64,000 bases of DNA, taken from NCBI GenBank assembly GCA_903868595.1, contig CAIPVV010000047.1, forward strand, positions 1 through 64,000, read 5' to 3'. Below the pieces are notes generated by a model. That model did not search any database. It had not been told where the DNA came from and was given only the letters and a program-made list of their open reading frames with translations. Shown one piece after another: positions 42,632 through 49,848 of the stretch. The translations under genes were made by a program, and so were the position numbers. Source of the stretch: an uncultured Pseudomonadota bacterium (GTDB taxonomy: Bacteria > Pseudomonadota > Gammaproteobacteria > Steroidobacterales > Steroidobacteraceae). Each line of letters starts with the position of its first letter. Position 1 is the first letter of the stretch.

Positions 42632-44875
42632 ATGAGCCACAAGACTGGCCAGACTCTGCTGCCGCGCCTCGCCTCTGCCGCCCTCGGGCTGGCACTGGCC
42701 GCGCTCCTTGCCGCCTGCGCCCAGCAGAAGGCGCCCGCGCCGGTTGCCCAGGCCCCCGCAGGCCAGGTCGATCAGGATCGCCTGCTTGCCGCGGACCAGG
42801 AGCCCGGCTCCTGGCTGGCCAGCGGCCGAGACGCCGGCAAGACGCACTACTCGCCGCTGGACTCGATCAAACGCGAAACGGTCGGGCGCCTGGGCTTTGC
42901 CTGGGAGTTCCAGACCGGCACCAACCGCGGCATGCAGGCCACGCCACTGATGGTCGATGGGGTGCTGTACACCTCGGGCGTGGCGGGCCGCGTCTATGCG
43001 CTGGACGCGCAGACCGGCAAGCCCAAGTGGCAGTTCGAGCCGCCGCTGAAACTGAAGAACGCGCGCGGCTCCTGCTGCGACATCGTCAACCGTGGTGTGG
43101 CCGTGTGGCAGGGCAAGGTCTACGTGGGTTCCTTCGAGGGCATCCTCTACGCCTTGGACGCGAAGGACGGCAAGGTCCTCTGGCAGACCGACACCTTGAT
43201 TGATCGCAGCCGCGCCTACTCGAGCACCGGAGCGCCGCAGATCGCCGGCAAGTACGTGGTCATCGGCAACGGCGGCGCGGAGTTCGACTCCCGCGGCTAT
43301 GTGTCCGCCTATGACCGGGAGACGGGCAAGCTGGCCTGGCGCTTCTATACGGTGCCGGGTGACCCGTCGAAGCCGCAGGAGAACAAGGCCCTGGAGATGG
43401 CCGCGAAGACCTGGGATCCGAAGCGGGATCCGCGCTATGGCGGGGGCGGCAATGCCTGGGATGGCTTTGCCTATGACGCCAAGACGAACCTGGTGTACTT
43501 CGGCACGGCCAACGGCGCGCCGTGGAACCGGGCCTATCGCAGCCCCGCGGGCGGCGACAACCTGTTCATCGCCTCCATCGTGGCGCTGAATGCCGACACG
43601 GGCGAGTACGTGTGGCACTACCAGCAGACGCCGGGCGAGCGCTGGGACTATGACGCCACGCCGCAGCTGATGCTGACGACGCTGAAGCTCGATGGCGTCG
43701 ACCACGACGTGTTGATGCAGGCCTCGAAGAACGGGTTTTTCTATGTGCTGGAGCGCGCCACCGGCAAGCTGCTGGCTGCCGACAAGTTCGTCGATGCGAA
43801 CTGGGCCAAGGGCGTGGACCTGGCCACGGGCCGGGTCATTGAGAACCCGGACGCCGACTACACCAAGGGCAAGCCGGTGATCGTGTTCCCCTCCGGCGTT
43901 GGCGGACACAACTTCAATCCGATGTCGCGGTCGGCCCGCACCGGTCTGGTCTATATCCCGGCCGTACACAGCGGGATGGGCGTCGTCTCGGCGCCGTTGC
44001 CGGCGTACCGGCCCGAGCGCATGGCCGGCGGTACGCAGCTGGCCTTTGCCACGCAGTTGCTGGTGCCCGGGATGCTGCCGCCTGCACTGCGTTCGGTGAC
44101 CACGCCGGCCTACCTGAAGACCGTGCCCAGCCTCGACATGCACGCCTCGCTCAAGGCCTGGGATCCGGTGGCCCGCAAGGTCTTGTGGGAGCACAAGTAC
44201 GCCAGCTTCATGGACCACGGCGGCGTGCTGTCCACTGGCGGCGGCATCGTGGTCCAGGGCAGCATTGATGGCCACCTGCGCGTGTTCAATGACGAGACGG
44301 GCGAGGTGCTCAAGGACCTGGACACGGGCAGCCCGCTGATCGCCGCCCCCATGACCTATACGGTGAACGGCGTGCAGTACGTGGCGGTCCTGGCCGGTAC
44401 GGGCGGTGGCGGCTGGAACTTCTGGATGCCCGAAAACGTCGCCTTCACCCGTGGCAATGACAACCGGGTGCTGGTGTTCAAGCTCGATGGCGGCGAGGTG
44501 CGCAAGCCGGACCTGCTGCCGGCGGTGGCCCCGATCCCCGAGCCACCCGCACAGGTGGGCACGGTGGCAGACATCGCCGCGGGCGCGGCCTTGTTTGGGC
44601 GTAACTGCGCGTCCTGTCATGGCAACGCCGAGCGGGGACCGGTGCCTGACCTGCGCCGCTCCGGCGTGATCCGCGAGTCGGTTGCTTTCCAGGCCGTGGT
44701 GCGTGGCGGCGCGCTGGAGAAGCGCGGCATGTCCAGCTGGGATGACCTGCTGACGGCAGCGGAAGTCGAGCAGATCCGCACGCACCTGATCTCGGTGGCG
44801 CGCGATGCCTATGCCAGTCAGCAGAAGGGAGGGACAGTTGCGCCGGCGCCGGCCGTTAAAGAAGGCCACCTGTGA
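42632..44875 (+). CDS. Quinohemoprotein (PQQ + cytochrome c) dehydrogenase lipoprotein
   Basis: A 747-residue protein started at ATG 42632 behind GGGGGGA. The N-terminus is a lipoprotein signal with lipobox LAAC (Cys29). An eight-bladed PQQ propeller follows, with the vicinal disulfide Cys148-Cys149 in GSCCDIVNRG and W-motifs such as GKLAWRFYTVPGDP and DTGEYVWHYQQTPGERWDYD. A C-terminal cytochrome c domain has Cys659-x-x-Cys662-His663. This is the class II quinohemoprotein alcohol dehydrogenase layout. It oxidises an alcohol in the periplasm and passes electrons to the respiratory chain. The substrate is unknown. Its stop overlaps the flavoprotein start (GTGA). Confidence 0.92.
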   Translation: MSHKTGQTLLPRLASAALGLALAALLAACAQQKAPAPVAQAPAGQVDQDRLLAADQEPGSWLASGRDAGKTHYSPLDSIKRETVGRLGFAWEFQTGTNRGMQATPLMVDGVLYTSGVAGRVYALDAQTGKPKWQFEPPLKLKNARGSCCDIVNRGVAVWQGKVYVGSFEGILYALDAKDGKVLWQTDTLIDRSRAYSSTGAPQIAGKYVVIGNGGAEFDSRGYVSAYDRETGKLAWRFYTVPGDPSKPQENKALEMAAKTWDPKRDPRYGGGGNAWDGFAYDAKTNLVYFGTANGAPWNRAYRSPAGGDNLFIASIVALNADTGEYVWHYQQTPGERWDYDATPQLMLTTLKLDGVDHDVLMQASKNGFFYVLERATGKLLAADKFVDANWAKGVDLATGRVIENPDADYTKGKPVIVFPSGVGGHNFNPMSRSARTGLVYIPAVHSGMGVVSAPLPAYRPERMAGGTQLAFATQLLVPGMLPPALRSVTTPAYLKTVPSLDMHASLKAWDPVARKVLWEHKYASFMDHGGVLSTGGGIVVQGSIDGHLRVFNDETGEVLKDLDTGSPLIAAPMTYTVNGVQYVAVLAGTGGGGWNFWMPENVAFTRGNDNRVLVFKLDGGEVRKPDLLPAVAPIPEPPAQVGTVADIAAGAALFGRNCASCHGNAERGPVPDLRRSGVIRESVAFQAVVRGGALEKRGMSSWDDLLTAAEVEQIRTHLISVARDAYASQQKGGTVAPAPAVKEGHL

Positions 44876-46413
44876 AACTGATCCTGCCGCCCGGGGTGAC
44901 CGCGGCGCGCTTTGAGCAGGCGATGGCCGCCTTCGCGCGCGTGCTCGGCAAGGAGTGGGTGCTCGCGACCGACGAGGATCGCGAGACCTACCTGGACATG
45001 TACTCGCCGGGGCGCGAGGAGAGCCACGCGGCGGCCGGTGCGCTCGCTCCGGCCAGCGTCGAGCAGGTCCAGGCCGTGCTGAAGGTCGCCAACGAGTTCC
45101 ACATCCCGCTCTGGCCGATCTCGCGCGGCAAGAACTTCGGCTATGGCGGTGCGGCGCCGCGCCTGAGCGGCACGGTGATGCTGGATCTGGGGCGGCTCAA
45201 CCAGATCATCGAGGTCAACGAGAAGCAGGGCTACTGCATCCTGGAGCCTGGCGTGGGCTTCTTTGACCTGTGGGACTACCTCAAGCAGAACAAGATCCCC
45301 CTGCAGATGGGCATTCCGGGCAATGGCTGGGGCAGTGTCGTGGGCAATGCGCTGGAGCGCGGCTTCAGCCCGCTGGGCGACCACAGCAGCAACATCTGCG
45401 GCATGGAGATCCTGCTGCCCACGGGTGAATTGGTGCGCACGGGCATGGGCGCCATGGCCAATGGCAAGGCCTGGCCGCTGTTCAAGCATGGTTTCGGACC
45501 GTCCTGGGACCAGATGGTCGTGCAGGGCAATTATGCGATCGTCACCAAGCTGTGCTTGTGGCTGAAGCAGGAAGACGAGGCGGCGATCACCGTCGACGTC
45601 AAGCTCGACAAGCCGCAAGAGCTGCAGTGGTACACCGAGGCGGTGACGCCGCTGCGCCTGCGGGGTGTGCTTGATGGGCTGGTGCGCATCACCAGTTATC
45701 AGTCGGCGGCCACCGTGCCGACGCTGCGCAGCGAGTGGTACCAGGGCAAGGACTCGATTCCCGACAGCGTCATCCCGCTGATGATGAAGCGCTTCAATGT
45801 GGGTTGGTGGAACGGCGCGCTGCGCCTGGCCGGCTACAGCGATGTCTGTGAGGCCAACCTAAGGCGCGTGCTGGACCGGGTGGCGAAGTTCACGAAGCAG
45901 GAATTCAAGGTCATCCGCGGTCCGGGCAATGCCTCCCCGGGACCGAGCACCTATCCGCTGCAGATGACCAACTGGTATGGCGGCCGTGGCGGACACATCG
46001 GCTATTCGCCCGTCATGCCGGCCGACGGCAAGCTGGTGCAGGAACAGTTCGAGCGCACGCGACGCCGCTACCAGGAGTTCGGGCTCGACTATTCGGGCAC
46101 GTTCTACAACGATGGGCGCAGCGTGACCAACGTCAACCTGATCCTCTACGGCAAGGACGACGCCGAGCAGAAGGAGCGGGTGCGCAAGCTGTTCCTGGCG
46201 CTCATCGCCGACGCAAGGGAGCAGGGCTACGGTGAATACCGGACCCATCTGTCGTACATGGACGACGTGGCGGCGAGCTACGACTTCAACAACCACTCGC
46301 TGCTCAGGCTCAACGAGCGGGTGAAGGACGCGCTGGATCCCAACGGCATCCTGGCGCCCGGCCGCAACGGCATCTGGCCCAAGGCCTACCGCGCGCAGCG
46401 GGGCAAGCTGTGA
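44872..46413 (+). CDS. VAO/4-cresol dehydrogenase-like FAD oxidoreductase
   Basis: A 513-residue flavoprotein of the vanillyl-alcohol oxidase family. The FAD-binding PCMH domain shows PLWPISRGKNFGYGG, EPGVGFFDLWDYL, GNGWGSVVGNALERGFSPLGDHSSN. The C-terminal substrate domain has YGEYRTHLSYMDDVAASYDFNN and ALDPNGILAPGRNGIWP, as in PchF, eugenol hydroxylase and VAO. The Tyr-Arg of EYRTH corresponds, I believe, to the phenol-binding pair in VAO. The likely reaction is oxidation or hydroxylation of a para-alkyl phenol, with electrons going to the cytochrome encoded next. No signal peptide is visible, while its partner has one. It overlaps its neighbours on both sides. Confidence 0.88.
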   Translation: MKLILPPGVTAARFEQAMAAFARVLGKEWVLATDEDRETYLDMYSPGREESHAAAGALAPASVEQVQAVLKVANEFHIPLWPISRGKNFGYGGAAPRLSGTVMLDLGRLNQIIEVNEKQGYCILEPGVGFFDLWDYLKQNKIPLQMGIPGNGWGSVVGNALERGFSPLGDHSSNICGMEILLPTGELVRTGMGAMANGKAWPLFKHGFGPSWDQMVVQGNYAIVTKLCLWLKQEDEAAITVDVKLDKPQELQWYTEAVTPLRLRGVLDGLVRITSYQSAATVPTLRSEWYQGKDSIPDSVIPLMMKRFNVGWWNGALRLAGYSDVCEANLRRVLDRVAKFTKQEFKVIRGPGNASPGPSTYPLQMTNWYGGRGGHIGYSPVMPADGKLVQEQFERTRRRYQEFGLDYSGTFYNDGRSVTNVNLILYGKDDAEQKERVRKLFLALIADAREQGYGEYRTHLSYMDDVAASYDFNNHSLLRLNERVKDALDPNGILAPGRNGIWPKAYRAQRGKL

Positions 46414-46754
46414 TGCGCGCCGCAAGCCTTCTGTTGCTCTCCGTGCTGCCGCTGGCGGCCCTGGGCGCGCAGACGCCAGCGCAGCTTGCCGCCCGCGGCC
46501 AGCAGGCGTTCGCGCATCGCTGCGGCATGTGCCATCGTGAGGGCGGTACCGGCACCTTCATCCTGGCGCGGCGACTCGGGGCCGATAAGTCCCTCTTGGA
46601 GAAGCGTACCGACCTGCAGCCGCTGTACCTGCGCACCGTGGTGCGCTGGGGCATCGGCAACATGCCGCGCATTTCCCGCGTGGAGCTGCCGGAGAGCGAC
46701 CTGGAGGCCGTGACCGCCTACCTGACCGCTCCCAAGGGCCCGGCCGCCCCGTGA
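46413..46754 (+). CDS. Small cytochrome c subunit (PchC/EhyA-like)
   Basis: A 113-residue protein with a signal peptide (AASLLLLSVLPLAALGA|Q) and one heme site Cys37-GM-Cys40-His41. A Met in the NMPR context near the C-terminus is a likely axial ligand. It starts with ATG at 46413, sharing a base with the flavoprotein stop. Pairing of a VAO-type flavoprotein with a small cytochrome is the arrangement of 4-cresol dehydrogenase and eugenol hydroxylase, so it is most likely the electron-accepting subunit. Confidence 0.88.
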   Translation: MRAASLLLLSVLPLAALGAQTPAQLAARGQQAFAHRCGMCHREGGTGTFILARRLGADKSLLEKRTDLQPLYLRTVVRWGIGNMPRISRVELPESDLEAVTAYLTAPKGPAAP

Positions 46755-47323
46755 GCACGGCCCCGGCGCTGAGCGTCCATGCGCCGACCGGCCTGCTGGT
46801 CGGCGTGCGCCAGGTGCTCAGCCCGCACCGCGATCCCCGCCCGCCCGGGACGCGGGTGGACCTGGTGGTGCTACACGGCATCAGCCTGCCGCCCGGCGAG
46901 TACGGCGGGCCGTGGATCCAGCAGCTGTTCACCGGCAACCTGCCCACGACCCGGCACCCGTATTTCGCCCAGATCGCGGACTTGCGCGTCTCGGCCCATC
47001 TGCTTATCCGCCGGGACGGGGAAATCGTGCAGTTCGTCCCGTTCGGGCAGCGCGCCTGGCATGCCGGCGTGTCCGCGTGGAAAGGGCGCGAGGCCTGCAA
47101 CGACTACTCCATCGGCATCGAGCTGGAGGGCGCGGATACCGACCCCTACACCACCGCGCAGTACGCCCGCGCTGCAGAGGCGATCACGGCGCTGTGCACG
47201 GCCTACCAGGACCTCAGCCCGGCGCGCGTCGTGGGTCACAGCGACGTGGCGCCGGGCCGCAAGAGCGATCCCGGCGAGGCCTTTGATTGGGGTGCCCTGC
47301 GCGCTCGGCTGGCGCCGAGCTGA
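46751..47323 (+). CDS. ampD: 1,6-anhydro-N-acetylmuramyl-L-alanine amidase AmpD
   Basis: A 190-residue zinc amidase (amidase_2). LVVLHGISLPPGEYGG, VSAHLLIRRDGEIVQFVP, RAWHAGVSAWKGREACNDYSIGIELEG and VVGHSDVAPGRKSDPG give the zinc His, His and Asp ligands. It cleaves anhydromuropeptides in the cytosol during wall recycling. No signal peptide, as expected of AmpD rather than AmiD. GTG 46751 overlaps the cytochrome stop by 4 nt, which places ampD inside the oxidoreductase operon. Confidence 0.95.
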   Translation: MSTAPALSVHAPTGLLVGVRQVLSPHRDPRPPGTRVDLVVLHGISLPPGEYGGPWIQQLFTGNLPTTRHPYFAQIADLRVSAHLLIRRDGEIVQFVPFGQRAWHAGVSAWKGREACNDYSIGIELEGADTDPYTTAQYARAAEAITALCTAYQDLSPARVVGHSDVAPGRKSDPGEAFDWGALRARLAPS

Positions 47324-47460: not shown

Positions 47461-48162
47461 ATGAGGGCTCTGGACTCCAACGGACGGGTGATGCGGGCCT
47501 GGCAGCAGAACCGCGGCACGCTGCTCTTCCTGGCGCTGATGTTCTGCTTCCGCTCGGCCTGGGCGGACTGGGTGCGCGTGCCGACCGGCTCGATGAACCC
47601 TACGATCGTGGAGGGCGACCGGCTGATGGTCGACAAGCATGTCTATGGCCTGCGCGTACCGTTCACCCTGGCGCGGCTTACCGTGGGCCGCGATCCGCAG
47701 CGTGGCGAGATCGTGGTGTTCGAGTCGCCGCAGGACGGCAGCTCGCTGGTCAAGCGCGTGGTCGCCGTGCCGGGCGACGTGATCGCCCTGGACGGGGAGG
47801 CGCTGATCGTCAACGGCGTGCGCGCGCGCTATGAGCGCGGCGATGCGGAGCGCATCGCTTCGCTGCTGCAGGCAACGCAGGCGCAGGACCCGCAGATCGT
47901 GCGAGAGCGGGGGCTGGGGCCCGAACACGACATCCAGATCCTGCCGCACCGCGCGGCCCTGCGCAGCTTCGCCCCGGTGGTGGTGCCCGCGGGCGCCTAC
48001 TTCATGATGGGTGACAATCGCGATAACAGTGGCGATTCACGCTACTTCGGCTTCGTGCCGCGCCGTAACATTGTCGGCCTCGCTTCCCGGGTGGTGGTGT
48101 CCTTCGATCCGGAGCACTACTACCGGCCGCGGGGCGACCGATTCCTGACGCCGCTGGGCTGA
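47461..48162 (+). CDS. lepB: Signal peptidase I (S26 family)
   Basis: A 233-residue protein. ATG 47461 follows GGGAG at 7 nt spacing. One membrane helix (TLLFLALMFCFRSAWADW) precedes catalytic Ser44 in PTGSMNPT and Lys98 in VKRVVAVPGD. FMMGDNRDNSGDSRYFGFVP is the conserved box E. It cleaves signal peptides at the outer face of the inner membrane. It has a single N-terminal helix and is not next to lepA/rnc, so it may be a second, specialised signal peptidase. The 137 bp before it hold no other gene. Confidence 0.93.
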   Translation: MRALDSNGRVMRAWQQNRGTLLFLALMFCFRSAWADWVRVPTGSMNPTIVEGDRLMVDKHVYGLRVPFTLARLTVGRDPQRGEIVVFESPQDGSSLVKRVVAVPGDVIALDGEALIVNGVRARYERGDAERIASLLQATQAQDPQIVRERGLGPEHDIQILPHRAALRSFAPVVVPAGAYFMMGDNRDNSGDSRYFGFVPRRNIVGLASRVVVSFDPEHYYRPRGDRFLTPLG

Positions 48163-48276
48163 GTGGCGGCGCCGGAAGTCATCAGGTAGTTCAACGGATA
48201 TCTGCGGCCGGGCAGCGCCGCTCCAGCGCCGCGCGTTTTTCGCTGGCCATGAGGCTTCATCGACAAGGGGGAGACC

Positions 48277-49848
48277 ATGACAGATCAACGAGATTTAGAC
48301 CGCCGCAGCTTCCTTGCGGCTGCCATGGGCACCGCAGCCGGCGTCGGGGCCGTGGGCTTCAACGCCGCCGCCCATGCCGCGGATGCCGCGCCGGGTGGCT
48401 CGGACCTGTCGCGGCCGCCCGCGGGCGCACCGGGCAGCGGCGGGCAGTTCTCGCTGCTGCGTGCGGAAGTCACGATCAACGATTGCGAAGTGGACGGCAA
48501 GATCCCGGCTGAACTGGACGGCGGCTTCTACGCGACCGGCCCGGATCCGCAGTACCCGCGCCTGCCGAACAACATCCTGTTCGACGGCGAGGGCCATGTG
48601 CGGATGTTCCGCATCCAGAACGGTCGCGTCGACTACCGCACGCGCTACGCCAAGGGCGAGCGCTACCAGTTGCAGGACAAGGCGCGCCGCTCGCTGTACC
48701 CGATGTACCGCAACCCGTACATGGATGATCCGAGCGTCAAGGGTAAGTCCCGCGCTACCGGCAACACGCACGTGATCAACCACAAGGGCATGATCCTGGC
48801 GCTGAAGGAGGATTCACCACCGATCGCGATGGACCTCAATACGCTGGAGACCGTGGATGCGATCTTCACCTTCGGCGGCGAGCTCCCGAGCACGCAGCCG
48901 TTCACGGCGCACCCCAAGGTCTGCTCCCTCACCGGCAACCTGCTGGGCTTTGGCTACGAGGCCGAGGGGCTGGGTAGCGACGTCGTGTCGGTGTTCGAGA
49001 TCGACAAGACCACCAGCAAGAAGCTCTGGGAGACGAAGATCAAGGTGCCCTACGTGGGCATGATCCATGACTTCGGCGTTTCCGAGAAGTACGTGATGTT
49101 CTTCTGCGTGCCGATGACGATCGATATCCCGCAGATGAAGCGCGGTGGCATTCATTGGTCGTGGGACCGCAGCGGCAAGACGTACTTCGGGTTCTTCCGC
49201 CGCGGTGGCGACGGCAAGGACCTGAAGTGGTTCGAGGGTCCGACGCGCAGCGGCACGCACACCATGGGCGTGTTCGATGACGGCAAGAAGCTGTACTTCG
49301 ACACGGAGATCACCGCGGGCAACCCGTTCCCGTTCATGCCGAACAAGGACGGCTCGCCGCCGGACTTCAAGGGTGCCGAGAGCTACCTGCACCGCATCTC
49401 GGTGCCGCTGAACGGCAAGGCGAAGAGCTACGACATCGAGAAGCTCTACCCGTTGTCGGCGCCGCTGCCGCGCCAGGACGACCGCTACAACACCGTGCCG
49501 TACCGCTACGGCTACGCGGCCTGTCCGGACCCGGCTGTCGACCGGCGCGCCGCCGGCGCCTGCTATGCGCGCATGGACCTGCAGACGCGGACCTACAAGC
49601 TGTGGAACGCGGGGACGAGGATCTCGCTGGCGGAGCCGGTGTTCGCGCCCAGGAGCGCCACGTCGCCCGAGGGCGAGGGGTACCTGATGGGCATCGCCTA
49701 CCACCTGGACCAGAACCTGCGGTCTGATCTGGTGATCCTGGACGCGCAGCGGGTTGAGGCGGGGCCGATCGCCACGGTGAAACTGCCCGTGCAGGCCTCA
49801 CCGCAGGTGCACGGCCTGTGGGTACGCGGGGACCTCTACCCGACCTGA
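48277..49848 (+). CDS. Tat-exported carotenoid-cleavage-oxygenase family dioxygenase
   Basis: A 523-residue protein behind a strong AAGGGGGAG site. The N-terminus is a twin-arginine signal (DRRSFLAAAMGTAAGVG) ending near AHA|AD. The oxygenase domain has the four iron-binding histidines His212 (TAHPK), His264 (MIHDFG), His328 (GTHTMG) and His512 (QVHGLW), plus the family Glu region. MYRNPYMDDPSVKG near the N-terminus resembles isoeugenol monooxygenase and lignostilbene dioxygenase proteins more than plant carotenases. It probably cleaves a C=C bond in an isoeugenol-, stilbene- or apocarotenoid-like substrate. Export through Tat is uncommon for the family. Confidence 0.9.
   Translation: MTDQRDLDRRSFLAAAMGTAAGVGAVGFNAAAHAADAAPGGSDLSRPPAGAPGSGGQFSLLRAEVTINDCEVDGKIPAELDGGFYATGPDPQYPRLPNNILFDGEGHVRMFRIQNGRVDYRTRYAKGERYQLQDKARRSLYPMYRNPYMDDPSVKGKSRATGNTHVINHKGMILALKEDSPPIAMDLNTLETVDAIFTFGGELPSTQPFTAHPKVCSLTGNLLGFGYEAEGLGSDVVSVFEIDKTTSKKLWETKIKVPYVGMIHDFGVSEKYVMFFCVPMTIDIPQMKRGGIHWSWDRSGKTYFGFFRRGGDGKDLKWFEGPTRSGTHTMGVFDDGKKLYFDTEITAGNPFPFMPNKDGSPPDFKGAESYLHRISVPLNGKAKSYDIEKLYPLSAPLPRQDDRYNTVPYRYGYAACPDPAVDRRAAGACYARMDLQTRTYKLWNAGTRISLAEPVFAPRSATSPEGEGYLMGIAYHLDQNLRSDLVILDAQRVEAGPIATVKLPVQASPQVHGLWVRGDLYPT

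Follow-up and report, generated by a model that had tools for sequence, protein, structure and literature searches.

Among the published routes for lignin dimers, several proceed through the cleavage of a stilbene or a diene, and the excerpts of that literature available to us make no mention of export of the enzymes. LdpA, whose structure is 8ABV (excerpt of PMC11476836), forms the stilbene that is cleaved by LsdA (excerpts of PMC12997858 and PMC11323797), and the flavocytochrome PinVW makes a diene that is cleaved by the lignostilbene-type dioxygenase PinU (excerpts of PMC12607616 and PMC12997858). In the pocket of LsdA, Phe59 stacks on the ring of the substrate, and Tyr101 and Lys134 bind the 4-hydroxyl (excerpt of PMC8191317). 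In flavocytochromes of the PinVW kind SignalP detects a signal for the cytochrome but not for the flavoprotein, and PchCF is periplasmic (excerpt of PMC12724174). The words periplasm and signal are absent from the main text of four papers on such dioxygenases (PMC8191317, PMC6097328, PMC12607616 and PMC11323797), and a P. putida secretome paper, in the excerpt available, reports no LsdD homologue in P. putida.

The gene described here lies in a window (the whole stretch of DNA that was analysed) of 64,000 nucleotides, which belongs to a MAG (G000) of 3.03 Mb that is 94% complete. Its product, P0001, belongs to the RPE65/carotenoid-oxygenase family, and the gene has the following features:

48267..48273, plus strand: Shine-Dalgarno-like GGGGGAG, ending 3 nt before the ATG of P0001 (from the sequence)
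48277..49848, plus strand: P0001 gene, RPE65/carotenoid-oxygenase family, lignostilbene-dioxygenase type (from PF03055, 5v2d and 6ojr, and the LSD4 and NOV1 folds)
48277..48381, plus strand: predicted Tat-type leader, residues 1-35, with the twin-arginine codons at 48301-48306 (from Tat HMM placement and clade conservation)
48580..48582, plus strand: Phe102 codon, equivalent to LsdA Phe59, ring stacking (from alignment and the excerpt of PMC8191317)
48706..48708, plus strand: Tyr144 codon, equivalent to LsdA Tyr101, 4-hydroxyl binding (same sources)
48805..48807, plus strand: Lys177 codon, equivalent to LsdA Lys134, 4-hydroxyl binding (same sources)
48910..48912, plus strand: His212 codon, predicted iron ligand (from alignment to LsdA)
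49066..49068, plus strand: His264 codon, predicted iron ligand (from alignment to LsdA)
49258..49260, plus strand: His328 codon, predicted iron ligand (from alignment to LsdA)
49810..49812, plus strand: His512 codon, predicted iron ligand (from alignment to LsdA)

The open reading frame begins with ATG and encodes 523 amino acids, and the coordinates and length given in the first-pass annotation are correct. The Pfam RPE65 profile PF03055 covers residues 62-516 (E=1.4e-104; 351.2 bits, above the curated cut-off of 27), and a Gly/Pro-rich linker stands ahead of the domain, after the leader. An AlphaFold model, built on 10 sequences, has a mean pLDDT of 69, with values below 50 for residues 1-57 and for the segments that hold F102 and Y144.

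The first-pass annotation had described a complete four-histidine oxygenase, and the four residues are indeed in place: His212, His264, His328 and His512 align with the iron ligands His167, His218, His282 and His472 of LsdA. It had also proposed a phylogeny against lignostilbene dioxygenases, which places P0001 in the lignostilbene group in agreement with the structure matches. The nearest folds are those of LSD4 (6xm9), NOV1 (5j55) and PbLSD, and LSD4, NOV1, PbLSD and LsdA all rank before apocarotenoid oxygenase (ACO). Judged by tree, bit scores and structure matches, P0001 is thus grouped with the lignostilbene dioxygenases. Against the equivalog profile NF053778 (LigStilDioxAlpha) it scores 440.8 bits, below the cut-off of 800, and P0001 is therefore termed lignostilbene-type rather than LsdA.

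The leader of P0001, MTDQRDLDRRSFLAAAMGTAAGVGAVGFNAAAHA-ADA, has the twin arginine within DRRSF, a weakly hydrophobic, uncharged run and an AxA site (AHA-ADA), so that the DRRSF leader first noticed in the sequence is present and ends in a candidate cleavage site. It passes a home-made Tat rule that looks for a twin-arginine n-region, a hydrophobic stretch and AxA. The same rule is passed by 5 of 189 predicted proteins of its own genome, of which P0001 is one and one or more are spurious, in a background drawn from the window and 11 further stretches, with proteins filtered by length and coding score. As for the Tat-signal prediction suggested earlier as a check, the profile HMMs TIGR01409 and PF10518 both match at the expected residues, but with 13.1 and 16.5 bits P0001 falls below their cut-offs of 16.7 and 22.7. 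Among three Tat-bearing relatives tested, one (from G029, 22.1 bits) exceeds the TIGR01409 cut-off and none reaches that of PF10518. TatC is encoded in the genome of P0001 (E=2.1e-70). A leaderless protein made from a downstream start, which the first-pass annotation had named as the case against export if conserved in homologues, was rejected. In-frame starts occur at residues 17 and 26, within the leader, and at 72, within the domain; starts between the twin arginine and the core vary from one relative to another and are missing altogether in the Tat members L012, L033 and L052, so none is conserved. Export of P0001 via Tat is considered very likely.

To see how widely the leader is shared, 189 distinct family proteins were gathered from the P0001 genome and its relatives, from named MAG contigs and from a sample of 397 genomes within the phylum, Pseudomonadota according to the named contigs. 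The family is present in 63 of those 397, and the best three matches at most were scored in each; five fragment rows (G109, G147 and G369) and 15 mostly partial rows of a search of related genomes were left out of the set. The Tat rule flagged 51 of the 189 proteins, one of them (L004) falsely through a spurious upstream frame, and missed one true case (L158), whose start lies more than 30 residues upstream. Five genomes of the genus have orthologues that are 81-87% identical to P0001, align with it from residue 1 onwards and begin with a similar leader. The twin arginine is found in all 28 flagged lignostilbene-type members, as the rule itself guarantees; AxA follows it by 15-42 residues in 27 of the 28, Phe stands at the second place past it in 24 and Asp or Asn before it in 23.

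When the leader is excluded from the tree computation, the Tat members of lignostilbene type form one clade of 27 rows (bootstrap/SH-aLRT support 94/76, a node that is not starred), and the leader recurs in 25 of these. The careful tree holds 42 of 116 rows; the trees omit lower-scoring and short rows, near-copies of more than 95.5% identity and the incomplete L022 and L052, and their references are LsdA and PbLSD, with no ACO-like outgroup. The two rows that lack the leader are a paralogue in the same genome, on C42, and the orthologue in G008 (68% identical), while the sister rows of the clade, L019-L021, also have none. The leader label changes three times on the tree, in comparison to a mean of 12.4 for shuffled labels, which fits one gain of the leader and two losses. 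Between P0001 and L039 the leader is 71% identical and the core 89%, with dN/dS values of 0.065 and 0.125, a contrast of which only the sign is meaningful because dS in the leader is saturated.

The conservation of the leader gives good support to the first proposal, that the enzyme is exported by Tat already folded and loaded with iron. Since two close relatives are leaderless, the same enzyme type must also occur without export. Those two relatives, the sub-threshold HMM scores of P0001 and a signal-less LdpA homologue that adjoins the Tat-type gene in G029 would also suit a leader that is vestigial or a mere membrane anchor, with the enzyme acting, as its relatives do, on the cytoplasmic face. 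Against this stand the retention of the twin-arginine leader across nearly the whole clade in spite of its lower identity, the AxA site in all but one of the flagged members and the relative in G029 that exceeds the TIGR01409 cut-off, and we consider a vestigial or merely anchoring leader unlikely.

A Tat leader exclusive to the P0001 type within the family was a further idea that had to be rejected. In the same-phylum sample, among the best three matches at most per genome, 20 of 82 family proteins pass the rule, all of them outside the lignostilbene-like part, in which none of 23 proteins passes on the same terms. A signal on a member of this family is therefore less unusual than the first-pass annotation had assumed, Tat leaders being common in the apocarotenoid-oxygenase-like branch. 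This second Tat-bearing group comprises part of L130-L155 together with L029 and L031, that is, the 20 of 82 in the phylum and two in the order. No report of a Tat-exported branch in the lignostilbene group was found in the open-licence literature; that branch is the element that looks new, export in the wider family being already non-unique.

The pocket separates the two Tat-bearing branches. The Phe/Tyr/Lys triad is kept in all 28 flagged lignostilbene-type members, and it is also found in 30 proteins without a flagged leader, and so it marks the enzyme type and not export. In the second branch, 21 of 22 members have Trp at the position of LsdA Lys134, and for L139, the sole member tested, the nearest solved enzyme is the apocarotenoid oxygenase 2biw. 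With the triad in one branch and Trp in the other, the exported clade looks suited to 4-hydroxyaryl alkenes. Membership of the carotenoid oxygenase family, and the likeness of the second Tat branch to apocarotenoid oxygenase, might instead point to carotenoids or apocarotenoids, set free in the periplasm, as the substrates of P0001 in place of phenols. This is highly improbable given that the nearest solved sequences are PbLSD (5v2d, 336 bits) and LsdA (6ojr, 328 bits), as against 90.5 bits for native apocarotenoid oxygenase, and that P0001 has Tyr and Lys at the phenol-binding positions where the second branch has its Trp in place of Lys.

The genes ahead of P0001 are arranged as follows:

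42632..44875, plus strand: PQQ alcohol dehydrogenase with a C-terminal cytochrome c domain and a lipoprotein-like signal, LLAAC (from profiles and the N-terminus)
44872..46413, plus strand: vanillyl-alcohol oxidase / cresol dehydrogenase (PchF)-type flavoprotein, no signal (from Pfam and solved relatives)
46410..46754, plus strand: small cytochrome c with a signal-like N-terminus, likely the partner of the flavoprotein (from Pfam and the N-terminus)
46751..47323, plus strand: ampD amidase, overlapping the cytochrome gene (from a profile match)
47461..48162, plus strand: signal peptidase I (lepB), between ampD and P0001 (from a profile match)

The first four of these genes overlap successively by 4 bases. 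A signal-less flavoprotein of the VAO/PchF type adjoining a cytochrome c with a signal is the pattern of the periplasmic flavocytochromes described above. The module of PQQ dehydrogenase, flavoprotein, cytochrome and ampD lies upstream of the dioxygenase gene in G000, G001 and G006; in the latter two the dioxygenase gene comes directly after ampD, with no lepB there, and in G001 the two genes overlap. Orthologues of the flavoprotein (72-91%) and of P0001 (68-87%) co-occur in seven of nine genomes of the genus, G005 and G007 having neither and at most distant matches. A stable linkage of dioxygenase and flavocytochrome is weakened by the finding that the two adjoin in only three of the seven genomes that have both: G003, G004 and G008 have different genes around the dioxygenase gene, and in G002 it sits at the end of another contig.

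The solved relatives of the flavoprotein include eugenol oxidase, vanillyl-alcohol oxidase and p-cresol methylhydroxylase, and this brings up a narrower form of the preferred reading, in which the exported enzyme would act on a small phenol such as isoeugenol or 4-vinylguaiacol instead of a lignin dimer, the substrate being made from alkylphenols in the periplasm by the neighbouring flavoprotein. Bacterial members of the family turn isoeugenol and 4-vinylguaiacol into vanillin (excerpt of PMC6700365), and the identical pocket triad would serve. The nearest solved enzymes, however, cleave stilbenes, and in other genomes it is an LdpA-like (stilbene-forming) or a tannase gene that adjoins the Tat-type gene; a small phenol as the substrate is therefore entertained tentatively, as possible but short of probable.

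Those other neighbourhoods are varied. A tannase/feruloyl esterase gene adjoins the clade gene in L049 (by Pfam) and L047 (by similarity), and a MarR regulator does so in G012 (by Pfam) and in G029 and G008 (by similarity). LdpA-like NTF2 genes adjoin two Tat-type genes (G029 and L046) and one leaderless gene (G008). The NTF2/SnoaL protein of G029 matches LdpA 8ABV with E=2.9e-86 and has no signal; that of L046, encoded some 200 bp downstream from its Tat-type neighbour, has three NTF2 domains and a lipoprotein-like signal; and that of G008 has a signal-like start, the adjacent dioxygenase being the leaderless one. In the P0001 genome, the second Tat paralogue (L056) has two LdpA-like copies roughly 8 kb away, each with a signal-like start. 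No LdpA-like gene was found in the 64,000-nt window. LdpA-like NTF2 domains, single or in threes and with Sec- or lipoprotein-like signals, were seen at L061:5809-8877 (G000:C38), L056:18297-19785 and L046:6868-8949, the L061 protein being fused to an esterase domain. Separately, L055:4710-5795 was seen to encode a short-chain dehydrogenase whose leader, IDRRQFLGG, is Tat-like; it lies just behind a gene for a fusion of a virginiamycin-B-lyase-like propeller and a tannase.

The genome of P0001 is rich in genes of these kinds. It has ten full-length RPE65-family genes plus fragments, compared with eight lignostilbene dioxygenase homologues in SYK-6:

G000 contigs C2, C4, C8, C11, C27, C38, C42, C43, C47 and C55: the ten full-length family genes (L001-L008, L053 and that of the window)

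The fragments (L054 and L055; G000:C31:13919-14372 and C31:60162-60314) appear to be decayed copies: an N-terminal and a C-terminal piece separated by roughly 50 bp, and a lone C-terminal piece. PQQ dehydrogenases are encoded by 19 genes that score above 170 bits, next to a few weaker matches; the seven tannase matches correspond to six genes, and of the LdpA-like domain matches 18 are strong and one is weak. Seven of the 19 PQQ genes lie within 10 kb of an RPE65-family gene (0.0006 under random placement) and five of the ten family genes within 10 kb of a PQQ gene (0.003), results that are exploratory because the PQQ family was chosen after the window had been seen and some contig sizes were assumed. 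Beyond this genome, close relatives of P0001 lie on 14 named contigs, all from MAGs, nine assigned to Gammaproteobacteria or a subgroup and five to Proteobacteria only. Among 369 sampled genomes of the same class, a match at E<=1e-100 was present in two, the genome itself and G766; in G766 the closest member has a Tat-like leader and the second match has none.

Taken together, P0001 is probably a Tat-exported dioxygenase of the lignostilbene type that cleaves 4-hydroxyaryl alkenes in the periplasm. The protein would form a seven-bladed propeller around a four-histidine Fe(II) centre, with a Phe/Tyr/Lys pocket that recognises the 4-hydroxyphenyl ring. It would fold and load its iron in the cytoplasm, be exported by the Tat pathway and be released after the AxA site, and in the periplasm it would use O2 to cut the double bond beside the 4-hydroxyaryl ring to give aromatic aldehydes. 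A lignin-derived stilbene, diene or vinyl/propenyl phenol is the proposed substrate, and the external origin of the substrate, already suggested in the first-pass annotation, is what we infer as well. The neighbouring cresol-dehydrogenase-type flavocytochrome, itself probably periplasmic, may make such alkenes or share compounds with the dioxygenase, and the PQQ dehydrogenase may handle alcohols or aldehydes.

A bolder proposal is that the entire route for splitting lignin dimers lies outside the cytoplasm in these bacteria and that only monomers enter the cell. Exported LdpA-like NTF2 lyases (through Sec or as lipoproteins) or the periplasmic flavocytochrome would turn dimers into stilbenes and dienes, Tat-exported dioxygenases would cut these to aldehydes, and PQQ dehydrogenases would oxidise the products. 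The cofactors would be carried or assembled outside: none for the lyases, flavin and cytochrome c, pre-loaded iron, and PQQ. The basis for this is the presence of LdpA-like genes near clade genes, together with the feeding of the LdpA stilbene to LsdA, but in neither G029 nor G008 do the predicted compartments of the two proteins agree, an argument against a wholly extracytoplasmic route that leaves it doubtful.

If the preferred reading, a periplasmic dioxygenase of the lignostilbene type, is correct, an O2-dependent, iron-loaded cleavage step would take place in the periplasm and part of the breakdown of lignin fragments would occur outside the cytoplasm. Bulky or toxic dimers would then not need to pass the inner membrane, and PQQ enzymes could oxidise the aldehydes. 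With the exported branch, the site at which environmental bacteria process lignin fragments could be tested directly, and secretable enzymes for vanillin-type aldehydes would become available.

In comparison with the known systems, P0001 has the same fold, four-histidine iron site and Phe/Tyr/Lys pocket as LsdA (6ojr), LSD4 (6xm6-9), NOV1 (5j53) and PbLSD (5v2d), with 35-37% identity in structural alignments. Unlike the characterised lignostilbene-alpha,beta-dioxygenases as they have been described, P0001 and most of its clade have a Tat leader. The apocarotenoid-oxygenase-like Tat proteins of Pseudomonadota belong to the same superfamily and share such leaders, but they form a different branch. 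The likeness to LdpA-LsdA, which handles beta-1 dimers in sphingomonads, lies in the LdpA-like genes beside the clade genes of G029, L046 and G008; unlike that system, most dioxygenases of the clade are of the Tat type, and Sec or lipoprotein-like signals occur on several LdpA-like proteins. By analogy, the arrangement in the window resembles the PinVW-PinU pair of the Novosphingobium rhizosphaerae pinoresinol pathway, where, in the available excerpts, a cresol-dehydrogenase-type flavocytochrome likewise goes with a lignostilbene-type dioxygenase, whose gene is translationally coupled to pinZ, a gene for an NADPH-dependent reductase. The main text of the PinVW-PinU paper uses none of the words periplasm, signal and export; P0001, unlike PinU, has a Tat leader and shares its locus with both a flavocytochrome and a PQQ dehydrogenase.
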